From assembly GCF_009828745.1 (NCBI RefSeq), contig NZ_WTSX01000001.1, forward strand, positions 124,001 to 188,000: 64,000 bases of DNA, written 5' to 3'. Source of the stretch: Erysipelothrix anatis (GTDB lineage: Bacteria > Bacillota_I > Bacilli_A > Erysipelotrichales > Erysipelotrichaceae). Positions 6,635-54,049 of this stretch are shown one piece after another (position 1 is the stretch's first letter; each line of letters opens with the position of its first letter). Under the pieces are notes generated by a model. That model made no database searches, was not told where the DNA came from, and saw only the letters and a program-made list of their open reading frames with translations. The position numbers and the translations under genes are program-made.

Positions 6635-6901
6635 TTATTGAATCCGATATTTACCATGAGAAATGAGATACTGACCAACGCCAATCATGGCAATACCAAG
6701 CGTCACAATAATGACAATGCGATCAAGCTCAAGCGGGTCCTCGTCTTGATTGGGATTATTCATGGTGTAAACCGTAACATTACTCGAATCAGATCCTTTA
6801 GCCGAAACTGATGAATAATGATACGTAAGAAGCACAACCCAAACCAATACGATAGTCAGTAAACCAGATTGACGTGCATGTTTACTTCTTTGCATGTTCA
6901 T
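6635..6901 (-). CDS. Small exported membrane protein of unknown function
   Basis: An 88-residue protein with a basic start (MNMQRSKHARQ), a hydrophobic export segment at about residues 12-33 ending SSVSAKG, a polar Asn/Asp-rich stretch, and a second hydrophobic segment (DRIVIIVTLGIAMIGVGQYL) followed by HGKYR. That tail looks like a sortase-protein membrane anchor but has no LPxTG motif. It is placed after the large LPNTG adhesin gene in the same direction, across a terminator. AAAGGA lies upstream of the ATG. No family was recognised. Confidence 0.55.
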   Translation of the reverse strand: MNMQRSKHARQSGLLTIVLVWVVLLTYHYSSVSAKGSDSSNVTVYTMNNPNQDEDPLELDRIVIIVTLGIAMIGVGQYLISHGKYRIQ

Positions 6902-38024: not shown

Positions 38025-38438
38025 ATGCGAAAACTAATCACTTTAGCACTGTTTACAATCTTGCTAACGGGATGTATTAGTGTGAACGTACCTGCTGATG
38101 ATTCGAAATCCAAAGAACCAATTACACAGCAAGAAACACCCAATAATACACCTGCTAAAGAAACAGAAACACGTGAAGGGGCAACCAAGGATGGCACTGC
38201 ACAAGATGCATACATCATTGACACCTTTGCCCAGTATGGTTACACAGCACCTGAGCGTTCTCAGTGGATTGTGGACCAACAAGGACCTCATAAAGTTGCG
38301 GTCATTATTAAAGAAAACGTCGGACAAGGAAAACCTAATATTTCAAAACTTGTCTTTCTTTGGAATGATGATGCTGAATCTACCGAATTACTTCATGTTA
38401 TGATAAACAACACCACTCAATTTGGTTCAGATCAATAA
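38025..38438 (+). CDS. Lipoprotein with an APERSQW domain, copy 1
   Basis: A 137-residue lipoprotein. Signal MRKLITLALFTILLTGC gives lipid Cys17. A polar Thr/Lys/Glu-rich linker (residues ~25-65) is followed by a ~70-residue domain with FAQYGYTAPERSQWIVDQQGPHK, VAVIIKENV, KPNISKLVFLW and a C-terminal MINNTT. The second gene at 38598 has the same domain. GGACACACATC precedes the ATG. The domain is not one I recognise; the family is of unknown function. Confidence 0.8.
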   Translation: MRKLITLALFTILLTGCISVNVPADDSKSKEPITQQETPNNTPAKETETREGATKDGTAQDAYIIDTFAQYGYTAPERSQWIVDQQGPHKVAVIIKENVGQGKPNISKLVFLWNDDAESTELLHVMINNTTQFGSDQ

Positions 38439-38597: not shown

Positions 38598-39038
38598 ATG
38601 AAACGTATTATAGTATTTTTTATCGTAGCTGCTTTACTCTCAGGATGCAGTACAAAGACACCTGCTGAAGTTCCCGTCGAAAAAATCGTTGAGACACCCA
38701 AGGAACCGGTACAAGAACCCGCTACGAAACCAGAAGTTACAGAACCTGAAGTCGTTGAAGCACCCATTGAGGAACCTCAAGAAGTACCACTCGAAACGCC
38801 TGTCGGTCTAACACAAGATGAATTTGTCGTTCAAACGTTTGCTAATTATGGTTTTACCGCTCCTGAACGCAGTCAATGGCAATTTGAGAACCAAGGACCA
38901 AACAAGATTGCTGTCATTATTAAAGAACCCGTACAACGGGGTCGCCCAAACATTTCCAAGTTGATTTTCCTCTGGAATGGTTCAGCAGAGCAAGCTGAAA
39001 TTTTACATCTTAGCATCAATAACCGTGTCATAATCTAA
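38598..39038 (+). CDS. Lipoprotein with an APERSQW domain, copy 2
   Basis: A 146-residue lipoprotein. Signal MKRIIVFFIVAALLSGC places the lipid Cys at residue 17. A Pro/Glu/Val-rich linker of about 50 residues (KEPVQEPATKPE and so on) holds the domain away from the membrane. The C-terminal domain has FANYGFTAPERSQWQFENQGPNK, IAVIIKEPV, RPNISKLIFLW and a final SINNRVII, close to copy 1. GAGGATAGAAT precedes the ATG. Only the domain is conserved between the copies, not the linker, so they look like a tandem duplication that has diverged. Confidence 0.8.
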   Translation: MKRIIVFFIVAALLSGCSTKTPAEVPVEKIVETPKEPVQEPATKPEVTEPEVVEAPIEEPQEVPLETPVGLTQDEFVVQTFANYGFTAPERSQWQFENQGPNKIAVIIKEPVQRGRPNISKLIFLWNGSAEQAEILHLSINNRVII

Positions 39039-42091: not shown

Positions 42092-43237
42092 TTATAATGC
42101 ATCCTTGGTAAATCTTTGCAAGTTTATATTGTGATTCTCCTGCACAAGCTGCTTGAAGAAGATGTCATAAACATCATCAGAATGTGCCCGGTATGCTTCC
42201 TCGTAGAGTGCTTCATTGAGATGCAACTCCTGTGTAATTTCATTTACAGTATAGGATTTATTATTCTTAAGATGCGCTGCAAAAGCATCATAATACGTCT
42301 CATAATAGAAGATACTTTCAGCCGGATAAGCATCGTACAAGGCATCATTTAACCCTTCTTGAAGATACGATTCTGTCATCATTCGTTTATATTGTCGCTC
42401 TGTTAGATCTAACAAAAATGCCCCTTCGCAAGCATCGAAAGCGACACCTTGATCGAAGCATGAACTCGTCTCTAACCGACTCAAAGAATCAAAGTCAAGA
42501 TACGCTTGAAGTGACTGATCACGGACTCCCTCTTGAACTGCGTCAACCAACGCATCAGAAAACTGCTTGTCATAATGCACAAACTCACTGGTTGGTGGCG
42601 TAATTTCTTGCTCTGGTTTCCGTGTATCTTGACGTGTGCCAAAGATATTAAAAACGCCTAACAATTGGAATATCAACAAGAATACAGTCACCCATCCGAT
42701 AAACTGCACAATCATCTGAACAACGGACCATACTTGTTTCGCATTCGACTGATTCTTGCGTTTTGATTTCCCCTGATCGCGCCACCCGATACGACTTTCT
42801 TCACGGAAACGGACGTAGGATTCAAAGTGGTCCATCGTCATTTTTAATTCGGTTTCATTATCATTATTGTAATGTGCTATTTTTCGCAAATGCGGTAAGA
42901 TAATTTCAAACATGACACCACTTGGAATCAAGCGAACATCCACCCGTTGTAGCGATGCATTGAGCATTTCAACATCCTCAAAACGCTCATACACTTCTAA
43001 CCGATCTAAGGCATCAAACCATTTTTGCCAGACAAAGCGCTCTTTAACATCCATCAAGGATAGTTCTTGCATTAGATCGTCAAACCGCGTATCGGATGTA
43101 CCTTCCGCATAAACAAGCGCATCTTCATAAGCCTTTGTTAGTTCATCCGACTCTCCATTTGCTGCTACTTTCGAAGCATACGCCTCAAATATTTGTTCTA
43201 TATCTGTTGTTGCATCGATTCCTAGAATTTCCCACAT
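42092..43237 (-). CDS. Membrane protein with a J-domain-like N-terminus
   Basis: A 381-residue protein starting at the ATG at 43237 (AAGGTGGTATGGCTT upstream). Residues 1-50 (MWEILGIDATTDIEQIFEAYASKVAA, then DELTKAYEDALVYA) read like a degenerate J-domain or J-like helical hairpin; the HPD tripeptide is absent. A long acidic helical region is followed by a basic stretch (KSKRKNQSNAK), a single membrane helix (FIGWVTVFLLIFQLLGVF) and a C-terminal domain of about 175 residues rich in Asp, Tyr and Glu with two Cys. No family recognised. Single-pass topology and domain order suggest an envelope-linked protein; the function is unknown. Confidence 0.7.
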   Translation of the reverse strand: MWEILGIDATTDIEQIFEAYASKVAANGESDELTKAYEDALVYAEGTSDTRFDDLMQELSLMDVKERFVWQKWFDALDRLEVYERFEDVEMLNASLQRVDVRLIPSGVMFEIILPHLRKIAHYNNDNETELKMTMDHFESYVRFREESRIGWRDQGKSKRKNQSNAKQVWSVVQMIVQFIGWVTVFLLIFQLLGVFNIFGTRQDTRKPEQEITPPTSEFVHYDKQFSDALVDAVQEGVRDQSLQAYLDFDSLSRLETSSCFDQGVAFDACEGAFLLDLTERQYKRMMTESYLQEGLNDALYDAYPAESIFYYETYYDAFAAHLKNNKSYTVNEITQELHLNEALYEEAYRAHSDDVYDIFFKQLVQENHNINLQRFTKDAL

Positions 43238-43361
43238 AAGCCATACCACCTTTATGTAATTATACCAAATCTTCAGCCACATTGTGAATACGACGAACCT
43301 GTCTCATTGGATAACAGTCCCGTAACACGAAGGCTTCGTAACCACTTTTCGTTAGTTTATA

Positions 43362-43389
43362 ATAAAAAGACACGTTTTGTCGTGTCTTT
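43362..43389 (-). terminator. Terminator of the small peptide gene
   Basis: AAAGACACG and CGTGTCTTT form a 9-bp stem with a TTTTGT-type loop and A/T tracts, directly past the stop codon of the 51-residue gene. Confidence 0.85.
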
Positions 43390-43394
43390 CGCTT

Positions 43395-43550
43395 CTATGA
43401 TTCATGCATTTTCTTACTCATTTTTAGAAGAAGGATAACAGTTTGTATCAAAATGATGATTATCAGTATTTTGATTGTAAATACAATAACCGGATCTATA
43501 TTTCGTATAAATTCAAGAAGCGAATGATACACCATAAGTGTCACATTCAT
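43395..43550 (-). CDS. 51-residue single-pass membrane peptide, possible type I toxin or small membrane protein
   Basis: This gene is too short for usual ORF cut-offs. ATG at 43550 follows AAAGGGAGGGG with ideal spacing, and TATAAT is ~30 bases upstream. The product starts MNVTLMVYHSLLEFIRN, has one membrane helix (PVIVFTIKILIIIILIQ, then TVILLLK) and ends KMSKKMHES, so the C-terminus is basic. A 9-bp terminator follows. The form (short hydrophobic peptide with a charged tail, strong ribosome site, own terminator) recalls holin-like toxins of type I toxin-antitoxin systems, but no antisense RNA can be shown from sequence alone. Confidence 0.7.
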   Translation of the reverse strand: MNVTLMVYHSLLEFIRNIDPVIVFTIKILIIIILIQTVILLLKMSKKMHES

Positions 43551-43677
43551 TTCAAACCCCTCCCTTTCAACCTATTTTTATTATACCGTTTCATTTCTAT
43601 AGGACGACTCACAGTGATTATGTTGTCGTTTTGAACGCTTAAAACGCGTCTAATCATAACTTACGCATTGCAATCAG

Positions 43678-43705
43678 AAAAAGAACCGATCTGAGTCGGT
43701 TCTTT
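43678..43705 (-). terminator. Terminator of the ABC-F/small membrane protein operon
   Basis: AAAGAACCGA and TCGGTTCTTT form a 10-bp stem with a TCTGAG loop, followed on the minus strand by T-rich sequence; it overlaps the stop codon of the 93-residue gene. Confidence 0.85.
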
Positions 43706-43985
43706 ACGATAAATATATGTAGATTACCAGCGGCATGATAAGTGCAATCGCCGTTCCTATCGACATAATGGGTGTACTTTCTTTTGCTCGATCAGCGATG
43801 CTTCCTACAGTCTCAAAATGATTGTGGAATAACGGTACGGATGTAAACAATGTTATAAGTAGTGCCAATCCAATTCCGATTCCAATATAATTACTGAAAA
43901 CAAACCATCCAAGGCCATGCTCGATGCCATAGAGAACCCCGACCAATACTAAGTAACATCCGTAGAGACTAAGTTTCTTTTTCAT
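43704..43985 (-). CDS. Small integral membrane protein
   Basis: A 93-residue protein with three hydrophobic segments (YLVLVGVLYGIEHGLGWFVF, IGIGIGLALLITLFTS, IMSIGTAIALIMPLVIYIYL). GGAAAGGAT precedes the ATG. It starts 37 bases after the stop of the ABC-F gene in the same direction, so they are probably cotranscribed. The family was not recognised. The link to ABC-F is only positional. Confidence 0.65.
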   Translation of the reverse strand: MKKKLSLYGCYLVLVGVLYGIEHGLGWFVFSNYIGIGIGLALLITLFTSVPLFHNHFETVGSIADRAKESTPIMSIGTAIALIMPLVIYIYLS

Positions 43986-44022: not shown

Positions 44023-45507
44023 TTACTCGCTCACCGGTTCAAAGCCATCTTCGGTCATAACAATGACCGTATCAAATACGTTCTCAATCAAGGAACGATC
44101 ATGAGTTACACAAAGTATAGCACCTTGGAATCCCTGAAGCATACTATAGATTTCATGAACAGAAAGTGGGCTTAGGTTTCGGGTTGGTTCATCTAAAATA
44201 ATAAACTGAGGCTTCTGAAGCACGAGCTTGAGAAGGGATACTTTCGCTTTTTGTCCCCCAGAGAGTAAACGCATGGGCGTATTCATCTCTGTTTCAGTAA
44301 ACTTTAAACTTCCCAAGCGATTTGTGATAAGACCTCGCTCTTCACGTGACCCTTCTCGTACACAATTATCAATCGGTGATTTTTCAAAGTCTAGATTGAG
44401 ACGATAATCTTGATGCATCATTGCATCATGATCTTTGAACACCTGCTTCAAGAGGCTCGACTTCCCAATTCCATTTCGACCAATAATTGCGATTTTGTCT
44501 GGAGTGTAAATATCCAAATAAAAATTATACCCCAATGTCTTACCCGCAACCTCAAGGGTGTCGACGTCAATCTCAGCAATCTTCTTACGATGTACTTTTT
44601 CTTGGTTGTCAAAACGTATGGAAATCGCAGACTCCGTATCTATTTTAGTTTCGTGAGTTTCGCGATCAAAACGACGTTCCATTGACTTAATTGTTTTCAT
44701 TTTCTTCTTCAATAAACGCCCTTTAGCAGGGTCTTGACGGGTTTGTGTGCGCTGACGATGCTCAACCGTTTGATACAATTGTAACCAGCGATCATATCGT
44801 TTAGCACGTGCTGCTTGATCACGTTCTACTTGATGATTATGCGTTGCGATTTCGAGATTACGGGTTTCTACATAGTCATCGTAACTTCCCTCGAAGACCG
44901 TAATATGCGAACGTGTTTTTCGATGCGTTTGTTCAAAATGAACGACTCGATTTGCTGTATTTTTCAGTAATTTAACATCATGAGAAATATAGAGAATTGG
45001 CTTATTTTGTCTTAAAATCCATGATTCAAGCCACATTAATGTCTCAATGTCCAAATCATTAGTTGGCTCGTCGAGTAGAAACACATCGACATCTTGGACC
45101 AGAATTTTCATAAGTTGAATTCGAACACGCTCTCCACCACTCAGACTTTGTAACGGTCTATCAAAATCATCATCCGTAAAATGTGGTAAGAGATCCTGAT
45201 GTACCGATCCAAAGGGTTCATAACGCTCCCATTGATCTTCAATGATGTAGTCTCTACTTGAACGTAGAAGGTCCTCGGCAGCAATATCTTGGGATACGTA
45301 ACCGAAAAGTACTTTCGATGAGACACTCCGGGTTACTTCCAATGTATCTAAAGACGGATGATTCAGTAAGGCTTTCAGGAATAAACTTTTTCCATTTCCC
45401 TCTTCTCCGATAATTGCAATTTTTTCGTTCTCGTGAACGGACATAGAAAAAGGCGCTACTAGTTGGCGCCCTTGTGGTGACTTCACACCAATATTAAAAT
45501 TTAGCAT
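44023..45507 (-). CDS. ABC-F family ATPase (ribosome-associated)
   Basis: A 494-residue protein with two ABC domains and no membrane segment. Domain 1: Walker A GEEGNGKS, signature LSGGERVR, Walker B VFLLDEPTNDLD and switch His YISHDVK. A basic linker (residues ~220-310, rich in Arg and Lys) follows. Domain 2: Walker A GRNGIGKS, signature LSGGQKAK and Walker B FIILDEPTRNLSP, where the D-loop reads Leu-Ser-Pro in place of the usual Leu-Asp. ABC-F proteins free or remodel stalled ribosomes and some give resistance to macrolides, lincosamides or pleuromutilins. AGGAGG lies upstream. Whether this one gives resistance cannot be told. Confidence 0.88.
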   Translation of the reverse strand: MLNFNIGVKSPQGRQLVAPFSMSVHENEKIAIIGEEGNGKSLFLKALLNHPSLDTLEVTRSVSSKVLFGYVSQDIAAEDLLRSSRDYIIEDQWERYEPFGSVHQDLLPHFTDDDFDRPLQSLSGGERVRIQLMKILVQDVDVFLLDEPTNDLDIETLMWLESWILRQNKPILYISHDVKLLKNTANRVVHFEQTHRKTRSHITVFEGSYDDYVETRNLEIATHNHQVERDQAARAKRYDRWLQLYQTVEHRQRTQTRQDPAKGRLLKKKMKTIKSMERRFDRETHETKIDTESAISIRFDNQEKVHRKKIAEIDVDTLEVAGKTLGYNFYLDIYTPDKIAIIGRNGIGKSSLLKQVFKDHDAMMHQDYRLNLDFEKSPIDNCVREGSREERGLITNRLGSLKFTETEMNTPMRLLSGGQKAKVSLLKLVLQKPQFIILDEPTRNLSPLSVHEIYSMLQGFQGAILCVTHDRSLIENVFDTVIVMTEDGFEPVSE

Positions 45508-53784: not shown

Positions 53785-54043
53785 ATATAAAAAGCGCCCA
53801 TCCCTAAGGATGAGCGCTGCTCATGTTACCACCTTAATTCGTTTATGTCTCACGATCATAAACCTCTTCAAGAACTATCATTCTCTAGCGCTTTAACGGG
53901 CGCTCCCGATGTGCCTAAACCACTATTCGTGTTTCAGCATCATTGCTCCAAGGCCATTTTCGCTTCGTTTCCGTCCGTCTACTCTCACCATACGTAGATT
54001 CTCTGTAAGAACTTTCATGAAGTTACTTTCCTTTTCATCGCTT
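53785..54043 (-). promoter_or_regulatory. T-box leader of the metNIQ operon
   Basis: Read on the minus strand, the leader has stem I features (AGAGAATCTACG, GGTGAGAG, then CCTTGGAGCAATGATGC), the T-box AAGGTGGTAACATGAGC (53835 downward), and a terminator AGCGCTCATCC/GGATGGGCGCT (53818-53793) ending in T4. AUG triplets occur in the 3' arm of stem I, which would suit a methionine specifier, but the exact loop was not modelled. Uncharged tRNA should stabilise the antiterminator and switch the operon on. Confidence 0.92.
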
Positions 54044-54049
54044 TTCACT

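Follow-up and report, generated by a model that had tools for sequence, protein, structure and literature searches.

A putative small membrane protein gene in two sister species of Erysipelothrix

A 51-codon open reading frame lying between a 93-codon and a 396-codon frame in Erysipelothrix anatis is, by comparison with its counterpart in E. aquatica, a real gene under protein-level selection in these two sister species. We moderately favour the explanation that it is a lineage-specific gene for a single-pass membrane protein, conditionally expressed, which acts on the membrane or on a membrane partner. The window referred to below is the whole 64,000-nucleotide stretch of E. anatis DNA that was analysed; its host genome (2.19 Mb) carries the peptide gene in a single copy.

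The reading frame and its probable transcription unit

The features of the locus are listed here in the order in which the gene is read, all of them on the minus strand.

43680..43705, minus strand: terminator that closes the upstream 93-aa gene and keeps it apart from the peptide gene
43580..43585, minus strand: -10 box TATAAT, unchanged in E. aquatica; the -35 is poor in both species
43557..43564, minus strand: Shine-Dalgarno (SD) core GGGAGGGG, 6 bases 5' of the peptide ATG
43395..43550, minus strand: peptide reading frame, with predicted amphipathic helix (residues 2-17), hinge (17-20), membrane helix (20-50) and basic C-terminal tail
43362..43390, minus strand: intrinsic terminator ending the peptide gene, stem at 43390-43365, then U
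43259..43288, minus strand: promoter of the downstream 396-aa frame, TTCACA-18-TATAAT with TG, 11/12, conserved in E. aquatica

The frame starts with an ATG and runs from 43550 to 43395, encoding 51 amino acids. A near-perfect ribosome site had been claimed for it by the sequence-only reading, and the calculation agrees: pairing with the anti-SD sequence reaches -12.4 kcal/mol, stronger than for any other of the window's 52 small intergenic ORF/start combinations and about equal to the best of its 52 large ORFs (median -8.2, best -12.5 kcal/mol). The -10 box claimed in the same reading is indeed perfect (43585-43580), with a poor -35, for which the best hexamer has 3/6 matches in the window and 2/6 in E. 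aquatica; the promoter is absent from the list of the standard promoter scan, which has a threshold of at least 9/12 with 4 per hexamer. This poor -35 is the sole basis on which expression of the gene would be conditional. Twelve bases 5' of the -10 box, ACAACATAATCA, are identical in E. aquatica; by a hand estimate such an identity is possible by chance, and we set it aside.

The gene's own terminator, also claimed earlier, folds into a stem of -12.3 kcal/mol, as stable as which none of 200 shuffles proved to be, and the rule-based terminator scan missed it despite the clear fold. E. aquatica retains this stem, in which one G-C pair has become A-U by a compensatory change. The 396-aa gene has its own start, because its promoter (43288-43259) is conserved in E. 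aquatica; as the upstream gene ends in its own terminator and an 11/12 promoter stands downstream, the peptide gene looks like a separate unit, which is the compact arrangement the sequence-only reading had described. Its transcript is probably a monocistronic mRNA of about 210 nt.

Among the neighbours, the 396-aa ORF (42092-43282, minus strand) has a J-domain-like N-terminus by eye and no Pfam match over the cut-off; its first ATG overlaps its promoter, which makes 43237 (MWEILGID...) the probable true start. The 93-aa ORF (43704-43985, minus strand) is membrane-like, lacks a Pfam match and is 82% identical in the relative. Next to it, an ABC-F protein (44023-45507, minus strand) is related to ribosomal-protection proteins, its best NCBIfam match being below the cut-off.

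Elsewhere in the window, two tandem small lipoprotein-like ORFs on the plus strand (38025-38438 and 38598-39038) have related C-terminal halves by eye and are both present in E. aquatica, with lipobox-like matches only. An 88-aa ORF (6635-6901, minus strand) combines a strong ribosome site (-10.5 kcal/mol) with hydrophobic N- and C-terminal stretches, as judged by eye, and has no Pfam match. A T-box leader scoring 120.7 bits is located at 53803-54047 on the minus strand.

Distribution, coding constraint and predicted structure

A search for homologous short ORFs, which the sequence-only reading had proposed as a check, returned one relative among the 12 other genus genomes searched: a syntenic gene in E. 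aquatica VA92-K48 (E 2e-20), identical at 40 of 51 residues. The remaining 11 genomes lack the gene, and weak matches in genus genomes (E 0.04-0.7) were not accepted as homologues. In a scan of genome contigs, 1 of 47 pattern matches was confirmed, again that of E. aquatica. A profile search at E <=0.01 gave matches in 10 of 395 class genomes and 8 of 392 phylum genomes, with the host genome counted and the two samples overlapping; among foreign genomes L060 matched best (E 1.1e-4), over positions 21-50 only, and this match was not accepted, on inspection of the DNA alone.

The spot between the ABC-F and 396-aa genes is variable across the genus, and the ABC-F neighbourhood differs in the other genus species examined. 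In one genome (G003) the ABC-F gene is kept and the 396-aa gene has a relative, with other genes between the two and no peptide counterpart seen. Because that relative occurs there without the peptide, we rejected an obligate partnership of the peptide with its 396-aa neighbour; the context indicates no partner. Of the 13 genus genomes, the two with the peptide gene are also the two with the 93-aa ORF, and from this distribution the pair of genes may have arrived together.

The conservation evidence comprises two sequences, those of the window and E. aquatica, which differ at 24 of 153 bases and 11 of 51 residues. The dN/dS ratio is 0.32 by NG86 (0.127/0.391) and 0.43 by YN00 (0.143/0.334), and 11 or fewer residue changes occurred in 0.2-1.5% of neutral simulations. 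The BLOSUM score of the coding frame was attained in none of 5,000 neutral simulations, the replacements being more conservative than in all of them; each of the remaining five frames is interrupted by stops and scores in the neutral range (7-94%). At the DNA level, identity to E. aquatica is 88% over codons 1-39; it falls to 72% for the tail and to 47-64% for spacer sequence lying beyond the gene's signals. The first 17 codons hold no synonymous changes, which is not special, as 3 of 7 neighbours show the same. Based on the dN/dS ratios, the conservative replacements and the compensatory change in the terminator, we regard the gene as one held under selection at the protein level, and we conclude from these sequences that the peptide would be made at some time.

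An AlphaFold model built from the two-row alignment (pLDDT 85.6) predicts helices at residues 2-17 and 20-50. The N-terminal helix is amphipathic (hydrophobic moment 0.46-0.49), and the second is strongly hydrophobic, its best 19-mer having a mean hydropathy of 2.88. The two species agree fully at the hinge R16-N-I-D-P20, at K27 and at Q36, and the C-terminal tail has three lysines in the window and one arginine more in E. aquatica. The hydrophobic helix with a basic tail that had been noted earlier is thus supported at the level of prediction. Under the positive-inside rule, a tail with these charges should place the C-terminus in the cytoplasm.

SecE is likewise short, with an amphipathic helix followed by one membrane helix. 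The likeness ends there: the peptide has no match to PF00584, and we rejected a SecE identity because SecE is encoded elsewhere (G000:C28), a distinct gene scoring over the cut-off in both genomes. Other family searches gave no match over the cut-off in Pfam (best YphA, E 0.013, below cut-off) and nothing usable in NCBIfam or PADLOC. Searched against Pfam and NCBIfam up to E 10, the peptide matched none of the curated toxin families, Hol_Tox (PF16935) included, and Hol_Tox was over the cut-off in none of the 13 genus genomes. In the PDB there was no sequence match, and the fold search found no chain.

Bacterial small membrane proteins, as gathered with Pro-SMP finder (PMC10903887), have 20-60 aa, an ORF of 60-180 nt and a single helix with some 15-30 hydrophobic residues. 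By this account the peptide belongs among them in size and helix (51 codons, the hydrophobic 19-mer and the predicted helix 20-50), and it resembles them further in its intergenic position and its conservation in one other species, 11 genus genomes being without it. It differs in that no characterised member turned up as a sequence relative, and in being known from two species only.

Type I toxins and other alternatives

The sequence-only reading had likened the locus to type I toxins or small membrane regulators. The part of this comparison that stood is that of a genuine, bounded gene for a small membrane protein with a homologue and purifying selection; the toxin part was not supported, as candidate promoters on the opposite strand weaken or are lost in E. 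aquatica, no known toxin family matches, and the ribosome site is not predicted to pair more strongly than in synonymous shuffles. As a type I toxin, which we consider rather unlikely, the peptide would depolarise or disturb the membrane, and an antisense RNA from the opposite strand would block its translation. PMC8309996 and PMC6563280 describe such toxins as short (<60 aa), with a membrane helix, a charged C-terminus and an antisense RNA, a description that suits the peptide in its size, its one membrane helix and its charged C-terminus; the 50-53 aa toxins of C. difficile, too, had escaped annotation and lacked sequence homology with known toxins (PMC6563280). Compared with those toxins and the BsrG/TxpA group, the peptide is alike in length, hydrophobic helix, basic C-terminus and compact unit, and unlike in that it has no family match, no well-conserved antisense promoter, no sign of a prophage, and an amphipathic helix before the membrane helix. 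It is also single copy, with no phage or plasmid relative.

No well-conserved opposite-strand promoter was found at the locus across the two species. A perfect plus-strand TATAAT at 43358-43363 points into the peptide gene from its 3' side, a place from which an antitoxin overlapping that end could be transcribed; this box, a possible species-specific antisense start, is lost in E. aquatica. Two further opposite-strand candidates, with -10 boxes at 43482 and 43497, fall within the conserved ORF; in E. aquatica their -35 is kept and the -10 weakened, while a candidate at 43458 retains only 4+4 of 12 there. Shielding of the ribosome site in the full-length mRNA is common, though not universal, among type I toxins. 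In both species the fold prediction pairs the site with codons 36-42, which would be fitting for a toxin mRNA, but 19-33% (window) and 34-50% (E. aquatica) of synonymous shuffles give pairing at least as strong (lengths 150 and full), and we rejected the sequestered site as toxin evidence. A bolder version, in which the gene would found a new Erysipelothrix family of conditionally expressed membrane-acting peptides, seems to us quite improbable: here the mRNA would fold its strong ribosome site against codons 36-42, translation would await processing or an antisense RNA, and the locus would be type I toxin-like, its toxin of amphipathic plus membrane helix unrelated to known ones. In the literature searched, we found no report of a type I toxin-antitoxin system in Erysipelothrix and, judging by title, no Erysipelothrix transcriptome.

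The amphipathic and membrane helices, the narrow distribution and the variability of the ABC-F/396-aa spot in the genus would also suit a remnant of a phage holin or of another mobile-element membrane peptide, with selection now relaxed. We hold this to be very unlikely, given that coding constraint persists, that no relative was found in the phage and plasmid sequence searches or in viral contigs (120 pattern matches, 0 confirmed), that no recognised lysis genes adjoin the peptide (its neighbours are the ABC-F gene, the 93-aa ORF and the 396-aa ORF), and that the best PHROG match, 0.022 over 13 residues of the E. aquatica relative, is unconvincing. A structured regulatory RNA in which the ORF is incidental could account for the 217-nt transcript folding better than its shuffles in the window (z -2.41); with z only -1.32 in E. 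aquatica, selection seen in the reading frame, and a strong ribosome site and terminator framing exactly this ORF, it is highly improbable. Length is what speaks for a chance ORF: among random spacers (418 nt, matched to the real spacer in length and dinucleotide make-up), 21% contain, on one strand or the other, a frame that opens with ATG and codes for 51 aa or more. Only 2 of 20,000 such spacers combine that length with an SD of -12 kcal/mol or below, and this rarity, together with conservation in a second species and the protein-level selection, makes chance scarcely credible.

Proposed role of the peptide

If the locus is a lineage-specific membrane protein gene, an mRNA of about 210 nt would be made, probably conditionally, from the promoter with the perfect -10 and poor -35, and once transcribed it would be translated efficiently. 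The N-terminal amphipathic helix would lie on the membrane surface, followed by the conserved hinge R-N-I-D-P and a membrane helix with lysine 27 and glutamine 36, and the basic C-terminal tail would be in the cytoplasm. Most likely, the peptide would serve in a particular condition by binding and tuning either a larger membrane protein or the membrane.

The peptide joins the other lineage-specific small membrane proteins and is not a proven toxin. Its locus is a defined unit of about 210 nt that leaves the general picture unchanged, and it gives Erysipelothrix a small membrane protein gene that is well supported and of a kind missed by length cut-offs.
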